Below are positions 43,924 to 50,853 of a DNA stretch of 64,000 nucleotides, piece after piece; position 1 is the stretch's first letter; every line of letters starts with the position of its first letter. A program made the translations under genes and the position numbers. The stretch comes from Oligoflexia bacterium. GTDB taxonomy: Bacteria; Bdellovibrionota_G; JANQFH01. The DNA is taken from positions 1 to 64,000 of the forward strand of contig JANQFH010000003.1 of NCBI GenBank assembly GCA_028277945.1, in the 5' to 3' direction. The notes under the pieces are model-generated. The model made no database searches and was not told the DNA's origin. It worked only from the letters and a program-made list of their open reading frames with translations.

Positions 43924-44205
43924 GTGCGTATCAAGGACAAGGAAATCGAACGGCTGGCGACTATGATCGTACAAGCGCTTTCCACCAATAAGCGTATCTT
44001 AGCCAAATGCGAGCTGTCTCGCCTCAAGCAAGAGATTTTTGCCATCATCCAAAATAACATGAAAGAGGAAGAGGAATTAGAACGGCAGGCAGAGGCGATG
44101 CTGCAGCAGTATGAGGCACAGATCCGTAGTGGTCAGCTCGACTACCATAAGATGTTTCAGCTGACAAAGGCCAAACTTGCCAAGGAGAAGAATTTCGTTC
44201 TATGA
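43924..44205 (+). CDS. DUF507 family protein (first copy)
   Basis: 93 residues, helical, starting at GTG. Opens with MRIKDKEIERLATMIVQAL and has a charged middle (KEEEELERQAEAMLQQYEAQ), the DUF507 pattern. Members are short, uncharacterised proteins found in deltaproteobacteria, Aquificae and relatives, often in pairs. The next copy overlaps its stop by four bases. Confidence 0.85.
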   Translation: MRIKDKEIERLATMIVQALSTNKRILAKCELSRLKQEIFAIIQNNMKEEEELERQAEAMLQQYEAQIRSGQLDYHKMFQLTKAKLAKEKNFVL

Positions 44206-44480
44206 GGCTGAGCGAAGATCGCATATCTCATCTATCGCACCTGATCATCGACACACTTTATAAAGATGACCTGGTTGACTATCCAGAAGATGATGATCAG
44301 GAAGCGCTACGCGAAGTTAAGCGAGTTATTCACAACTATCTAAAGGTGGAGGATCAAGCCAGCGAAATCGCCCGCAACAAGATTCGCTCTCAGTCTCGGC
44401 CTATTGTCGAAGGCAGTCGAGAGTGGGATGTGCTCTACAATAAGTACCGTGAAGAAGAACTCGCCAAAAAACTGCGCTAA
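44202..44480 (+). CDS. DUF507 family protein (second copy)
   Basis: 92 residues, starting MRLSEDRISHLSHLIIDTLY, with SREWDVLYNKYREEELAKKL at the end, a typical DUF507 C-terminus. It overlaps the first copy by ATGA, so the two are translationally coupled and may form a heterodimer. Role unknown. Confidence 0.88.
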   Translation: MRLSEDRISHLSHLIIDTLYKDDLVDYPEDDDQEALREVKRVIHNYLKVEDQASEIARNKIRSQSRPIVEGSREWDVLYNKYREEELAKKLR

Positions 44481-46155
44481 AGCAGGCCTGCCCCCTTTAA
44501 GAGACAATATTCTCCTCTTTGTGCTATTTCTGCTATCTCTTCAGTGTATCTACTGTAGTAACGATTCGTCCGATGACGATGCTGTTGCCAAACTGACCTT
44601 GAGCAATGGCCAGGTGTCTACAACGCTTAACGCCGGTAGCAGTGGTGATTTTATCATCCTCCCCTTCTCGGCTCCCAGCAGCACTAGCGTCAGCGGCAGT
44701 GCCGCCTATACCCTACAGCTTACGGCAGAGAGTAGTGCCAAGCTCAGTGCAGAATTACCAGATGTCTCGGCCAAACAAACGTCATCGCATGATCCAGTGC
44801 TATTAAACCGTATGCAGCAACGCGCTGAATTTGAAGGGATCCGACAGCAACATCTGTTGCAAACACTGCAACAGTTTCAAGCTGAGGCAAAGCAAGTGGG
44901 TGGATATGATATCAAAGGCATGTACAAGGGAACGCCACCGCTACTTAGCAAACCCTCGTTTGTCTTTGCTTCAACCATTACGATCTTTAGTCCCTTCGCA
45001 GGCGACAATCAGCAATCTATTCAAGGCACTCTGCTGGCCAGTGATGCCAATGCGGCTATCTATCTCGATACCCGGGATAGCGGTTCGTTTTCAATCACCT
45101 CAGCAACAGCGGTTCTACAGACCTTCGCGCAAATCTCCATCCCACGCGTGCGGGCCTTTACCGGTAACGAGTCTGACATCAACGGCGATGGTGGTGTGGT
45201 GGTATTTGTGAGTTCAGCAACACCGGACTTTGCCCTTGCGTTTGTCCGCCCTCTAGATCTGCTGCCGGATGGTGTCGATCCTCTGACCAAGAGCAATGAG
45301 ATGGAGATCATCTATACTGCCCTGCCTGTGGGCGAACCCACAGATGCACTGTATCACGCAACGTTAGCACACGAGTTCTTTCATCTGGTTAACATTGCCG
45401 TTAAAAGCCTACCTGTATTTGTTAGCTCCGGTGGCACCCAGATCCCTTTAGAAGAGACCGGAATCAGTGAGGGTATGGCACATCTCATCGAGGATCTCGT
45501 GGGTTGGGGTGGTGGCGATACCTTTGCGGTTGCAGGGCAGTTTTTGGATAATGCCAATCTCGCCTCGGTCAATGGCTCAGTGGATGACTCGATTAAGAGC
45601 TCCAGCGATGACACCTTGGCCCGGCGCGGAGCAGCTATGTTGTTGCTGCGTTATCTCTTTGAACAGGCAGGCTCCGCCACGTATTCGACAACGAGTGCAG
45701 GAGACATCTCTGGCGGTGGCGTACAATTTTTCCGTGCCCTCAACAGTTCCAGCTTGGTTGGCCTGCCAAATGTCGAGAGTGCTGCTGGCACTTCCATGGC
45801 GGAGATCTTTGGCAATTGGGTAGCCGCGCTCTACCTCGATGGCACCGGCTTGAGCAGCAATGCACTCTATAATTACCAGGCGGAGGTAACTGATAGCTTT
45901 ACTAATGGACCGCGCGGCTTCAACCTTCGCGGTAGTCGTACCCTAAGCAGCGGATCTACCGTCACCTTGACCGGTCCGGCATTGCAGCAGACACTGCTTG
46001 CAAGTGGCACCACACCGCTACAGACCAACAGCACGCTCTTTCTCAGCGGCGTCAATTTCCTGCAGTATCGTTTAAGTGGCAGTACTACTGCCGAGTTAGT
46101 CTATCAGACAACTGCCGACTCTTCCCCTGGCCTGACCATCATTACCCTACCCTGA
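44428..46155 (+). CDS. secreted HExxH metalloprotease-like protein
   Basis: 575 residues from ATG 44428, which lies inside the second DUF507 gene; the exact start is uncertain. A hydrophobic export signal (DNILLFVLFLLSLQCIYC) is followed by a Ser/Thr-rich, beta-type region. The zinc motif HEFFH (H315, E316, H319) is followed 29 residues later by E348 in GISEGMAHLIE, the gluzincin arrangement seen in M30 (hyicolysin-like) peptidases. A beta-rich C-terminal domain follows (about 480-575). The catalytic residues are intact, so it is probably an active exported or surface protease. No inhibitor or secretion partner is adjacent. Confidence 0.75.
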   Translation: MCSTISTVKKNSPKNCAKAGLPPLRDNILLFVLFLLSLQCIYCSNDSSDDDAVAKLTLSNGQVSTTLNAGSSGDFIILPFSAPSSTSVSGSAAYTLQLTAESSAKLSAELPDVSAKQTSSHDPVLLNRMQQRAEFEGIRQQHLLQTLQQFQAEAKQVGGYDIKGMYKGTPPLLSKPSFVFASTITIFSPFAGDNQQSIQGTLLASDANAAIYLDTRDSGSFSITSATAVLQTFAQISIPRVRAFTGNESDINGDGGVVVFVSSATPDFALAFVRPLDLLPDGVDPLTKSNEMEIIYTALPVGEPTDALYHATLAHEFFHLVNIAVKSLPVFVSSGGTQIPLEETGISEGMAHLIEDLVGWGGGDTFAVAGQFLDNANLASVNGSVDDSIKSSSDDTLARRGAAMLLLRYLFEQAGSATYSTTSAGDISGGGVQFFRALNSSSLVGLPNVESAAGTSMAEIFGNWVAALYLDGTGLSSNALYNYQAEVTDSFTNGPRGFNLRGSRTLSSGSTVTLTGPALQQTLLASGTTPLQTNSTLFLSGVNFLQYRLSGSTTAELVYQTTADSSPGLTIITLP

Positions 46156-46532: not shown

Positions 46533-46993
46533 GTCGCATCTTTTGTAAGACGCAGATTGGCAAAGAAGCGTTGCAGTAGCTGAGCACACGCTTCTCGGCA
46601 CACACCGCCAACCACCTGTGGCCCTTGCGGCCAATTAGCATAGACCTGCTGGAGATAAGCAGGGTTTTTTGGATTTTCACAGCCATAGACTATGCGTCGC
46701 AGACGACTCTGACATATGGCGCCGTAGCACATTAGACAAGGCTGTACGGTCACAAAGAGTTCACCCGCTTCAAGACGCCAATCGCCAAAACGTCGACACG
46801 CCGCTTGCAATGCCAAGATCTCAGCATGCGCGGTGGGATCATGCTGTTGTTCACGGCCATTAGACGCCTGACCCACAACTTCGCCTGCCACGACGACCAC
46901 GGCACCAACCGGCACCTCCCCTAACTTCGCTGCCGTCGACGCCTCTGCTAACGCCCTTTGCATAAAGTAGTCATTGTCGACCATAATGCTCAC
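46529..46993 (-). CDS. tadA: tRNA-specific adenosine deaminase
   Basis: 154 residues of the CMP/dCMP-deaminase superfamily: zinc ligand and proton shuttle in HAEILAL and the Cys pair in PCLMCYGAI, with the tRNA-binding-type start YFMQRALAEASTAAKLGEV. TadA converts wobble A34 to inosine in tRNA-Arg. The ATGA overlap with the upstream lipoprotein gene suggests cotranscription. Confidence 0.92.
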   Translation of the reverse strand: MSIMVDNDYFMQRALAEASTAAKLGEVPVGAVVVVAGEVVGQASNGREQQHDPTAHAEILALQAACRRFGDWRLEAGELFVTVQPCLMCYGAICQSRLRRIVYGCENPKNPAYLQQVYANWPQGPQVVGGVCREACAQLLQRFFANLRLTKDAT

Positions 46994-47532
46994 TGAGAAA
47001 AGGCCTCCTCGAAATCCCCGGTAACCGAACCGCCCCCCTGCAAATCGACGGAGAAGTTGCCAGCAACGACGCTAATCGCAGCGCTGCCAGCAGCTGCTTG
47101 AGACAACTGCAGGCTGGTTAAATTAAAAAACCCGCCTGTCCCAACAATATCTGCCTTCGAACTACCAACAAAAAGGATCGAGCCAGAAAACTGATTGTTA
47201 GTACCATCGATCACATACTGGCCAATAGAAAAACGGGCGGTCAAGGTAACACCGTCCGGATTCTTTGGTGAAAGGCTCAAGGTCACTTCATCATCGCTGA
47301 CATTAGAGAGACGAATGTTCAATACATCTTGACCACTGCTGGTAGGAAAGTTTATTGCGGAAAACTTAACGTTTACATTAGCACTCTGTCCATCCGCAAT
47401 CACCAGCCCCTCAAGACTGCCAATAATGTTGGCACAGCCTAACAAAACCAAGCATATGCCGAGCAACCCCATGCAGAGCCAGCACCCAGGAGGGGAGCTT
47501 GTCTCTGCAAACCTGTGTGCTAGGATCATCAA
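46990..47532 (-). CDS. lipoprotein of unknown function
   Basis: 180 residues with a lipobox ending at C33 (LVLLGC) after an unusually long, Cys-containing N-terminus; a downstream Met at residue 21 is an alternative start. The mature part is beta-rich, Ser/Gly/Asn-rich (NIRLSNVSDDEVTLSLSPK) with no known domain. It is divergent from the propeller/barrel gene with a 16-base gap and followed by tadA. Confidence 0.7.
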   Translation of the reverse strand: MMILAHRFAETSSPPGCWLCMGLLGICLVLLGCANIIGSLEGLVIADGQSANVNVKFSAINFPTSSGQDVLNIRLSNVSDDEVTLSLSPKNPDGVTLTARFSIGQYVIDGTNNQFSGSILFVGSSKADIVGTGGFFNLTSLQLSQAAAGSAAISVVAGNFSVDLQGGGSVTGDFEEAFSQ

Positions 47533-47548
47533 AAAATTTTAACCAATT

Positions 47549-50086
47549 ATGACCATTGTCGCAAATCGGCACATCTTCTTGGCAGTAGTAGTTGTGTGGC
47601 TCGCTCTCGTAGCACTGCCACAGATAGGCCTAACCTTTCCAGACAGTGCCAAGCTGACATTGCCCATTTCTGTGGTCGGCGGTCAACAGGCCATCACTCC
47701 AAATGGACGCTTTGTTGCCGTGTTGTCGCAAACGGCGTCGACTTTAAGCCTCATCGATACTGCGATCTTTGCAGAGTGTGCGGTCATCTCCCTCTCTGCA
47801 ACACCAACGGGTGTGGTTGCGGCTGCTGATAGCAGTCGCTTCTTTGTCGTAACAAACAGCAAGGATGGGCTGTTCGAAATCGACCTCGATCCCGATGACG
47901 GCAATTTTGTCACTACTGCCGTGGACGGTATTAATACCGGTGATGCCTTTGCCGCTATTGCTCGGGACGGCGATCTACTCTTTCTGCTGAACGAAGACGG
48001 GGACAACATTCACATTTTTGATACAGCTCTAGGCAGTGCCAGCACCGCTGGAATCAACCCCATCGTACCTAGCTTTAGCGCTACTGCCCTGGAGGCTTTC
48101 TCTGAGAACTCGCGGCTTCTGGTTGTCGGAAGCGATGGCAGCAGTGCGCTTTTTGATAGCCAAACCTTTGCCCAAATCGGCGTTACGCTCGATCTTAGTC
48201 AGTCCAGTGCTTCGGCTACAACTGCGTTCATGAGCATCGCCGGCGGCATGGAGACAGGAGGTACTGTCGTTGGCTTTGTTGCCAACAGCATCAGCAGCGG
48301 CGAAGTGTTTGCCCTCAACCTAGACTCTCTTAGTGGTCCTCTTCTCCTTGATGCCAACCCTGCCACGAGCATGGTGGATCCTATTGCTGTTGGAGATCAA
48401 CCCGTCAGCCTACTATTGACGGACGTCCTCAACCCACTCGACACGACACTAAGCAGTGATCAGTATCTCTATATTGCCAATCAAGGCGATAAGCGTGTTG
48501 ATGTCGTACCGATCTCTGAATTCTTTGATAGCGACAGCGAGAGTGCCAGCACGATCGCTAACATCGACCTCTCGATCGCCCCTGCGGCAGACGGTCTCCG
48601 TGGCAATGCCGCCAACGACGGCTATCTCTATCAGAGTTTGGATGGCAGTAGCAGCGTCGCTGTAATCACCGATAACCCTCTGGTTACATTGACAACGACT
48701 GTTCCCAGCTTGGTTAGTAGTGGCAGCTTCAACCTTGACTTCCAAGCAGATGAAGCCGGTAGCTACGACGTAAGGGTGCAGAGTGGTGATGGTGTTACAG
48801 CCGCGACACCGGGTAACGGGGCACTGCTGGCCAGCGGGTCTCTTACAGCCAATGAAGTAATCTCGGTACAAATCAACGCTGGTGACTTCAACCAGGGCAG
48901 TAACCTACTGATTGTCTTTGTGACTGTTGGTAGCCGTACTGGACGTGTTGGTGCGAAGGTCGAAGCCGACCTACCGCCACCGGCACCCGAGGAGTTTGAG
49001 TTGGAGTTTGGTAATCAAAAGGTCTTCGTTCAATTTCGTTCCCTCAGTGGAGACATTGATTTTTATCGTATCTTTTTCGGTACGTCGAAAAGCGCTTTGA
49101 ACGGCACCGATCTGTTAACCTCACCGACCACGGTCGATCATCCAGACCAAGCCAACCAGAAGCTAACTGAAATCCTCTCTCCCCTCAGCAACGGTGTGGA
49201 AATTTTTGTACAAGTTGCTGCTGTCAGTGACAAGGGTGTCGAGGGCGAGCGTACGGAAATCCTTGCAGAAACTCCTGAAGAGACCATCGGCCTCTTAGAG
49301 ATCACCGGTGAGACAGGAGGCTGCGGCAGAGTGTCTTCGACAGGCAGCCATCGAGCGATAGCCCTCTCGACAATAGTTGTGTTGCTATTTCTGCTCCTCT
49401 CTCTCGCTGATTGGAGAAAAACCCTAGTGAAGCTTGGCATGCTCTGTATATGGATTCCGTCAACGCTTTGGGCACAGAGCAACAACGATCTGGAATACGT
49501 GGTTAGTGAGAAAACCAGCCGCTTGCCCATTGTCAGCAGTTTTCGTATCAGCTGGTGGCTGCCACAGAATGATAATGTGGAACAATTTTTTGGCGATCGG
49601 GCCAACGAAGTCTACAGCTTGCGTATCGGCCTGCCACTGCAGATTCCTACTGGGGTCTTGGAGCCTGCACTGGAAGCCGGTCTGATGGTTGAAAGCAGTC
49701 GACTCCTCGGTGTTTCAAGCGGGCGTTCCTCAGGAGAGGAGAGTTCGCTACTGCTCGTTCCTCTCCGTTTGGATCTAACCTATCTCATTGACCCAAACGC
49801 TACTTGGCTGGTGGTACCACTTTTGGAAGCGGGCTACGGTTGGACCTTTTTTGATATTGAAGAGAACGACCAGCAAGTCGATGGGTTCAAGCAGAGCCTC
49901 ACTTTTCGTGGAGGGTTTCGTCTCCTAATCGACCGTTTTGTCAAAAACCCAGAGGGGTGGCGAGAGTTTCTCGCCTTACGCAGTGCCTATTTCGCCGTCA
50001 CTGCAGGTTACGAACTGCCCCTAGCTAGTGACGGATTTAAAACAACCGGTGTGCTCATAAGTCCAGAGATCGGAGTAGTCTTTTGA
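47549..50086 (+). CDS. beta-propeller surface protein fused to an outer-membrane barrel-like domain
   Basis: 845 residues. A signal peptide (about 1-29, VVVVWLALVALPQIGL) is followed by YVTN/WD-like beta-propeller repeats (about 35-370; ADSSRFFVVTNSKDGLFEID), a cadherin/Ig-like segment (about 380-470) and an Fn3-like domain (about 485-575). At 590-624 comes GGCGR, a hydrophobic helix (603-620) and DWRK, the layout of Cys-type C-terminal sorting tails such as MYXO-CTERM. A second export-signal-like stretch (626-642, GMLCIWIPSTLWA) then leads into a 200-residue beta-rich, aromatic-ended domain (SFRISWWLPQND to LISPEIGVVF) resembling an outer-membrane barrel. Either a genuine fusion or a lost stop codon between two genes. 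Confidence 0.7.
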   Translation: MTIVANRHIFLAVVVVWLALVALPQIGLTFPDSAKLTLPISVVGGQQAITPNGRFVAVLSQTASTLSLIDTAIFAECAVISLSATPTGVVAAADSSRFFVVTNSKDGLFEIDLDPDDGNFVTTAVDGINTGDAFAAIARDGDLLFLLNEDGDNIHIFDTALGSASTAGINPIVPSFSATALEAFSENSRLLVVGSDGSSALFDSQTFAQIGVTLDLSQSSASATTAFMSIAGGMETGGTVVGFVANSISSGEVFALNLDSLSGPLLLDANPATSMVDPIAVGDQPVSLLLTDVLNPLDTTLSSDQYLYIANQGDKRVDVVPISEFFDSDSESASTIANIDLSIAPAADGLRGNAANDGYLYQSLDGSSSVAVITDNPLVTLTTTVPSLVSSGSFNLDFQADEAGSYDVRVQSGDGVTAATPGNGALLASGSLTANEVISVQINAGDFNQGSNLLIVFVTVGSRTGRVGAKVEADLPPPAPEEFELEFGNQKVFVQFRSLSGDIDFYRIFFGTSKSALNGTDLLTSPTTVDHPDQANQKLTEILSPLSNGVEIFVQVAAVSDKGVEGERTEILAETPEETIGLLEITGETGGCGRVSSTGSHRAIALSTIVVLLFLLLSLADWRKTLVKLGMLCIWIPSTLWAQSNNDLEYVVSEKTSRLPIVSSFRISWWLPQNDNVEQFFGDRANEVYSLRIGLPLQIPTGVLEPALEAGLMVESSRLLGVSSGRSSGEESSLLLVPLRLDLTYLIDPNATWLVVPLLEAGYGWTFFDIEENDQQVDGFKQSLTFRGGFRLLIDRFVKNPEGWREFLALRSAYFAVTAGYELPLASDGFKTTGVLISPEIGVVF

Positions 50087-50853
50087 AACGGCTGCGAACG
50101 ATTCATATGAGCGTGGGTTACGATGGTACGGAGTTCTGCGGTTGGCAAGTACAACCCAATGGACGAAGTGTACAAGGCGCGATCGAGGCAGCGCTAGCTA
50201 AGATCGGGCTCAGGGACACTGCGGTGATTGGCGCTGGCCGTACTGACGCTGGAGTCCACGCCTTGGGACAGGTCGCAACGTTCCAGACAGATAGTAAAAT
50301 CCCACTGCGGGCGTTTGATGCTGGCCTTAACACCAACCTCCCCGAAGATGTGAGAATACTCAGGGCCGCCGAATGGCCCCGACCTTTGCACGCGAGAAAA
50401 GACGCTCGAGAAAAGGTCTATGATTACTACTTTATCCAAGGCAAAACAGCGCAGCCTGTTCTTAGCCGGTATTGCTGGACAATACCTGCAAAAGTTAACC
50501 TGGAGAGAGCTGCTGCAGCACTGGCGGTTGTCCGTGGCACACACGACTTTTCCTCGTTTTGTGCTTCTGGAAGTGATGTGGAATACAAAGAGAGAATTAT
50601 TGAGGCTGCGTCATTGTCTGCGGTCAAAACACAACATCCCCTGTTCGCCAACGTTGACCTCTACTGTATCCGCCTGCGTGGCAATGGTTTTCTCAAGCAG
50701 ATGGTACGTAACATCGTTGGCTCAGTTCTGAGCAGTGGTGAAAAGCAGATCGATGCTCAAACCATGCAGGACATCCTCGCCGCACGGGATCGTCGCCGGG
50801 CTGGCCCCACAGCACCTGCCAAAGGTCTCTTTTTGATGCAGGTCATCTACTGA
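50083..50853 (+). CDS. truA: tRNA pseudouridine synthase A
   Basis: 256 residues. It starts at TTG overlapping the preceding stop, with GGAG seven bases upstream. Catalytic Asp in GAGRTDAGVHALGQV, preceded by YDGTEFCGWQVQPNGRSVQG and followed by GNGFLKQMVRNIVG. It forms pseudouridine at tRNA positions 38-40. Confidence 0.97.
   Translation: MKRLRTIHMSVGYDGTEFCGWQVQPNGRSVQGAIEAALAKIGLRDTAVIGAGRTDAGVHALGQVATFQTDSKIPLRAFDAGLNTNLPEDVRILRAAEWPRPLHARKDAREKVYDYYFIQGKTAQPVLSRYCWTIPAKVNLERAAAALAVVRGTHDFSSFCASGSDVEYKERIIEAASLSAVKTQHPLFANVDLYCIRLRGNGFLKQMVRNIVGSVLSSGEKQIDAQTMQDILAARDRRRAGPTAPAKGLFLMQVIY

Follow-up and report, generated by a model that had tools for sequence, protein, structure and literature searches.

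An in-frame fusion of a Cys-tailed propeller-like protein and an outer-membrane barrel recurs in distant bacteria and probably yields two proteins

A 64,000-nucleotide stretch of contig JANQFH010000003.1 from an Oligoflexia bacterium (GenBank assembly GCA_028277945.1; hereafter the window) carries a gene in which a propeller-like protein with a Cys-type sorting tail and an outer-membrane barrel share one open reading frame. Judged from sequence comparisons, this fusion is real and maintained, has arisen several times in distant bacteria, and is old rather than recent. We consider it probable that the gene encodes one precursor that signal peptidase I would cut into two products, a free barrel and a propeller protein with a Cys tail, making it a natural two-protein polyprotein.

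Results

Architecture of the fused gene

The fused gene reads from an ATG start through a single frame with no internal stop, and it is the only gene with such an architecture in its genome, a 92-contig draft (G000). Along the chain, we observed a signal peptide, a propeller-like region, two beta-sandwiches, a GGC-helix-DWRK tail, a second signal peptide and an eight-stranded barrel (Table 1). The divergent lipoprotein-like gene upstream had no family match in profile searches, and the start of truA overlaps the stop of the fused gene; truA also lies downstream of both fused and split relatives. Further upstream on the same strand, two small open reading frames (43924-44205 and 44202-44480), overlapping by four bases, match the first and second halves of DUF507 (PF04368 positions 1-93 and 95-180), followed by a gene for an exported protein with an HExxH-type motif (44404-46155) that weakly matches the MXAN_6640 putative metalloprotease family (E 0.021) and whose listed TTG start, overlapping the preceding gene, is probably too early.

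Table 1 Features of the fused gene and its immediate neighbours in the window.
Feature	Coordinates	Strand	Support or remark
Small lipoprotein-like gene, divergent, upstream of the fused gene	46990..47532	-	Syntenic in G001, G002, G004
Fused gene, 845 aa, one frame	47549..50086	+	Same architecture in G002, G004
N-terminal signal peptide, residues 1 to ~29	47549..47635	+	Hydrophobic stretch 8-24, mean hydropathy 2.54
Beta-propeller-like region, residues 31-375	47639..48673	+	NCBIfam beta-propeller models, E 7.5e-5
Two beta-sandwich (Fn3/Ig-like) domains, residues 380-588	48686..49312	+	NF045522 match; strands in low-confidence model
GGC motif, G590-G591-C592	49316..49324	+	Cys592 aligned in G002, G004 and split relatives
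First transmembrane helix, residues about 602-619, former C-terminal tail helix, proposed stop-transfer	49352..49405	+	Mean hydropathy 2.83; helix in AlphaFold model
Basic loop ADWRKTLVK, residues 620-628, predicted cytoplasmic	49406..49432	+	Length varies widely among relatives
Possible internal start: GGAG 49413-49416, in-frame GTG 49427-49429	49413..49429	+	Not conserved among fused genes
Internal second signal peptide VKLGMLCIWIPSTLWA, residues 627-642, predicted cut between LWA and Q643	49427..49474	+	Sequence pattern
Eight-stranded outer-membrane beta-barrel, residues 643-845, last residue Phe (F845)	49475..50083	+	NF040596, AlphaFold and Foldseek
truA (tRNA pseudouridine synthase)	50083..50853	+	PF01416, E 3.3e-37

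Alignment with relatives places the start of the mature protein near a conserved P31-D32, the cut position of the N-terminal signal peptide being approximate. The NCBIfam beta-propeller models that match the following region also match the fused protein of a relative, G002 (E 2e-7 and 3.3e-7), and this region shows a repeated four-strand pattern in the low-confidence AlphaFold model. That model of the whole 845 residues, built on a three-row alignment, has a mean pLDDT of 44 and is usable for the order of strands and helices only, being too poor for fold claims; it places a helical hairpin (602-642) between beta domains.

Both halves of the protein have counterparts among conserved families. 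The second beta-sandwich, immediately before the Cys tail, is the part that resembles MXAN_2561 (NF045522), with a window score of 15.3 bits (E 0.01) that does not reach the curated cut-off of 150 bits; the match is clearer in the fused relatives G002 (E 2e-8, 34 bits), G004 (E 4e-4) and G131 (E 2e-24, 87 bits). Similarly, the barrel matches MXAN_2562 (NF040596) at 33-36 bits (E 4e-8 for the whole protein, 4.1e-9 for the barrel alone), short of the curated cut-off of 100 bits, which some fused relatives exceed (G131, G096 and others). The halves are distant relatives of MXAN_2561 and MXAN_2562, lying outside the curated families. Modelled alone, the barrel forms eight strands (pLDDT 69, pTM 0.62), and a Foldseek search with this model returned OprF, PagL, OmpA and NspA at the top (probability 1.00; TM 0.61-0.66 by target for the top four and NspA). 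These eight-stranded barrels (for OprF, the N-domain) are the closest folds to a moderate-confidence model at an identity of 11-14%, a likeness from which we draw no catalytic role. The modelled fold and the aromatic C-terminal residue support its assignment as an outer-membrane barrel.

At the junction, the window tail has the tripartite layout of Cys-type sorting tails (GGC, helix, basic DWRK) without their C-terminal position: 221 residues follow K624, the end of the basic stretch D621-W622-R623-K624, and the tail is hence internal. By pattern, an internal signal peptide with a cleavage site follows a transmembrane segment, as in a polyprotein. The second signal peptide of the window protein is weakly hydrophobic, with a core of ~8 residues, and contains a Pro.

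Conservation within the phylum

Comparison with four other genomes of the same phylum (G001-G004) showed the same fusion in two other families (G002 and G004), in proteins of 827 and 797 residues with 32% and 27% identity in the alignment, the GGC motif and the hairpin being invariant. In G001 a single base separates two distinct genes (L004 3294/3296), with a stop present and a true terminal Cys tail, and G003 gave no match to the fused protein. The lipoprotein-like gene and truA are syntenic across G001, G002 and G004. In the barrel tree, the three fused genes of this phylum group together (support 96/81) and the split G001 gene falls outside (99/94), indicating that the fusion is old, with one split relative bearing the expected stop. 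Scanning contigs with the single protein gave no match, and the alignment-based scan recovered two fused relatives, L016 (that of G004) and L017.

For the few codons that separate the tail from the signal peptide, lacking a stop would be no great surprise under chance. What goes beyond chance is the retention of this junction, in frame and with the same elements, at 27-33% identity in two further families of the phylum, and its recurrence in other phyla.

Recurrence across phyla

In a wider survey, we found the barrel family in 33 of 385 diverse genomes, in all five genomes of one phylum and in 25 of 46 of another. In-frame fusions were present in 31 of the ~58 barrel-bearing genomes surveyed, spread over several phyla: three in the window phylum, five in the phylum of G131, 17 in the phylum of G272, three in the genus of G096, and one each in G018, G271 and G052 (one gene from the phylum of G272 is cut by a contig edge, and that of G052 is visible from the tail onwards only). 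Two tail types, plain Cys-helix-basic and CFI-box, occur among the fused genes, and the tree rejects a single fused clade (p-AU 3e-69; p 0.0012 with the no-helix splits added), together pointing to several separate fusions, and to splits as well. Candidate fusions in G183, G038, G318, G179 and others, suggested by long open frames ahead of the barrel, were rejected because these frames are open by chance and differ from the frame of the real upstream gene. Fused or not, the pair often sits between a semialdehyde dehydrogenase gene (asd-like) and truA in several phyla (for example, L002, L047, L051 and L053); in Pseudomonas, fimV sits between asd and truA.

Most split pairs outside the phylum of G272 share four bases (ATGA or GTGA), their upstream member carrying a Cys-helix-Arg/Lys or a CFI-box tail at its end. 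That this overlap is usual in split relatives is consistent with a need for paired synthesis, and the overlapping pairs would represent translational coupling of the sorted protein and the barrel, from which loss of the stop would give the fusion.

These comparisons bear on the initial annotation of the window, which had placed the GGC-helix-DWRK residues, the stretch ending in LWA and the barrel in one frame, at positions that we found to be correct. It had proposed that two usually separate proteins are fused, leaving the tail internal with a second export signal and a barrel after it, and split and fused relatives alike bear this out; the same junction, sought in relatives, was found in G002, G004 and other phyla. 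A stop codon in relatives had been taken there as grounds against the fusion: G001 has one (as given above), G002 and G004 have none, so that the existence of a split relative is no refutation of the fusion. The suggestion that an ancestral stop was lost is right in kind, the split relatives being adjacent or overlapping pairs, but not as a recent event, since the loss is old and the fusion maintained and recurrent.

Retention of the first helix and the conserved hairpin

In the phylum of G272, all 17 fused genes retain the first helix, and all six readable split genes lack it in every frame (Fisher p 1e-5, uncorrected for relatedness, with at least five independent label changes on the tree). 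The six split genes (L106, L107, L108, L118, L122 and L123) end 5-27 residues past the conserved Cys, and no membrane helix was found in any of their frames before the barrel's own signal peptide. They retain the Cys although the anchor is gone, showing that Cys retention is not always paired with a sorting helix. Indeed, Cys592, in its GE-x-GGC setting, is shared by all full-length relatives read, whether fused or split.

Every fused protein read contains two hydrophobic segments separated by a positively charged break. A signal-peptidase-like site follows the second segment in 25 of 28 fused genes, compared to 16.7 +/- 2.3 expected from shuffling, and the linker from the cleavage site to the barrel measures ~20 residues in the window protein and 5-72 residues, with a median of 10, in 30 fused proteins. 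The loop between the two helices carries long insertions of 20-44 residues in L114, L119 and L120. As a separate observation, the hairpin loops of L112, L114, L119 and L120 hold long repeat-like inserts (for example, RHPCESRDLMKF, plus one of 44 residues), giving the impression that this site accepts mobile or repeat elements.

Discussion

A model for processing

In the precursor model that we favour, the first signal peptide would launch export of the propeller and beta-sandwich part, and the old tail helix (602-619) would halt export and send the chain back into the cytoplasm. Export would then resume through the basic loop and the second signal peptide (627-642), and signal peptidase I would cut between LWA and Q, releasing the barrel for folding in the outer membrane. 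The propeller part would remain Cys-tailed and membrane-anchored, and its Cys592 may then become a site of cleavage or lipidation, as in other Cys-type sorting tails; processing at this residue is plausible.

This arrangement gives the former sorting helix a purpose within the fusion. A second signal peptide works only if its start lies in the cytoplasm, so a stop-transfer helix is needed after export of the first domain, and the former tail helix would supply it. The model predicts that the helix is kept in fused genes, that a positive break and a signal-peptidase site are present and that the loop is variable, all of which we observed (the site in 25/28). Because the linker is short, an uncut inner-membrane hairpin would usually be unable to reach an outer-membrane barrel, and a cut would be needed. 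As a more general and tentative proposal, to which we attach somewhat less than even confidence, the internal Cys tail and signal peptide may together form a throw-away inner-membrane hairpin, from which two different proteases would produce one anchored surface protein and one barrel at a fixed 1:1 ratio; such genes would constitute a recurrent and maintained class of envelope polyproteins. The sorting helix would double as a topology switch, a proposed role that would account for its being kept in fusions and lost in splits within one phylum.

Alternative explanations

With a 92-contig draft as the source, one could ask whether an assembly error, contamination or a decayed gene underlies the fusion, but independent genomes, from two other families and from other phyla, have the same fused frame, with truA and the lipoprotein-like gene in synteny, leaving this a negligible probability; the fused relatives rule out an assembly error, a decayed gene and a recent stop loss alike. 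Alternatively, the barrel could be translated separately by internal initiation at GTG 49427 (or ATG 49439), with read-through of the full frame being incidental. The GGAG lies 10 nt upstream of the in-frame GTG, the product MKLGMLCIWIPSTLWA would make a reasonable short signal peptide, and the coupled ATGA/GTGA starts of split relatives lie at the same place. However, 13 of the 31 fused genes, including those of G002 and G004, have no in-frame start giving a usable signal peptide, so that read-through of the hairpin must occur there, which rules out internal initiation as a general explanation. Retention of the first helix only in fused genes in the phylum of G272 is, moreover, sensible only if the chain runs through. 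For the window gene itself, internal initiation is possible, and we regard it as unlikely.

Two further readings accept a continuous chain and differ from the favoured model in what is cut. In one, signal peptidase makes the only cut, while the Cys tail and the first helix stay unprocessed and serve just to hold the propeller protein in the inner membrane. A curated myxosortase (Mrt family) was not found in the window genome, where the best of three CPBP proteases reaches an Mrt-type score of 35.7 bits against a cut-off of 130, and stop-transfer alone can explain the first helix; the MYXO-CTERM model (TIGR03901) likewise left the window tail unmatched at E <= 1 in its own genome. On the other hand, the retention of Cys592 even in helix-less relatives suggests that it has a role of its own, and a scan for Cys tails, covering the window and weak model matches, found a terminal Cys-type tail (GGGGCG-helix-RRGC) in another protein of the same genome as the three CPBP proteases (L141, contig C24, 1462-2991, minus strand). 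A divergent sorting protease in this genome is possible, and type II secretion is represented there by gspD (595 bits, secretin only). We judge a signal-peptidase cut without processing at the Cys somewhat unlikely. In the other reading, put forward in the initial annotation as a propeller tethered to its own barrel, the chain stays intact and both hydrophobic segments reach the periplasm. The single open frame is compatible with this, and single-chain surface proteins combining a barrel with further domains exist in general. Against it, a pair of strongly hydrophobic stretches split by a basic break would be expected to insert into the inner membrane, the short linker forbids joining an inner-membrane hairpin to an outer-membrane barrel, and the insertions indicate that the loop is not part of a folded tether. 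With a signal-peptidase-type site usually kept exactly at this linker, self-tethering as the final state does not stand up well, and we consider an intact chain quite unlikely.

Relation to known systems

The precursor model has a counterpart in the cytochrome b/c1 polyprotein (fbcH) of Bradyrhizobium, in which two envelope proteins share one frame and an internal signal peptide is cut by signal peptidase; its products are inner-membrane respiratory subunits, with no sorting tail and no outer-membrane barrel.

Closer in content is the MXAN_2561/MXAN_2562 pair (NF045522, NF040596), in which the gene for a Cys-tailed, Fn3-like-domain protein likewise precedes a barrel gene, with many relatives occurring as a separate pair beside truA. 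The window protein differs in being encoded by one gene, in scores far below the cut-offs and in an additional N-terminal propeller-like region. An alternative Cys tail, CFI-box-CTERM (NF041770), occupies the same place in fused and split relatives (G131, G096, G271, G038 and G318), whereas the window tail is of the short Cys-helix-basic type.

An internal tail before a barrel is already known. MXAN_5598 of Myxococcus xanthus, described in mBio in 2025, carries a MYXO-CTERM in its interior, ahead of an outer-membrane barrel; a fusion of two genes is its possible origin, and its first part has been proposed to be processed (PMC11980579). We liken it to the window protein by description; MXAN_5598 differs in its large N-terminal adhesin region, its C-terminal OmpA cell-wall-binding domains and its location in a cell-division gene cluster (PMC11980579), whereas the window-type fusion recurs across phyla and sits at truA. 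Similarly, TraA/TraB of myxobacteria are a Cys-tailed surface protein and a barrel protein made from overlapping open reading frames (PMC11980579). These too resemble the window pair by description, but they are separate proteins and form a kin-recognition receptor. The present fusion adds a further case, seemingly unrelated, with conservation across families, recurrence across phyla and a coupling between fusion and retention of the helix.

The fused, overlapping and helix-less versions in related genomes amount to a natural repeated experiment, in which the contributions of Cys, helix and second signal peptide could be told apart. They also tie MXAN_2561 and MXAN_2562, two unstudied conserved families, into what is probably one functional pair, because both the fusion and the four-base overlap suggest that the two are partners. 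Automated pipelines will likely name such genes by the barrel alone, missing the first product. As a further observation on the barrel families, the fused protein of G271 (L080) matches the Bd0486 barrel family (NF053801) at 241 bits, compared to 73 bits for MXAN_2562, and the Bd0486 family may also contain fused forms.
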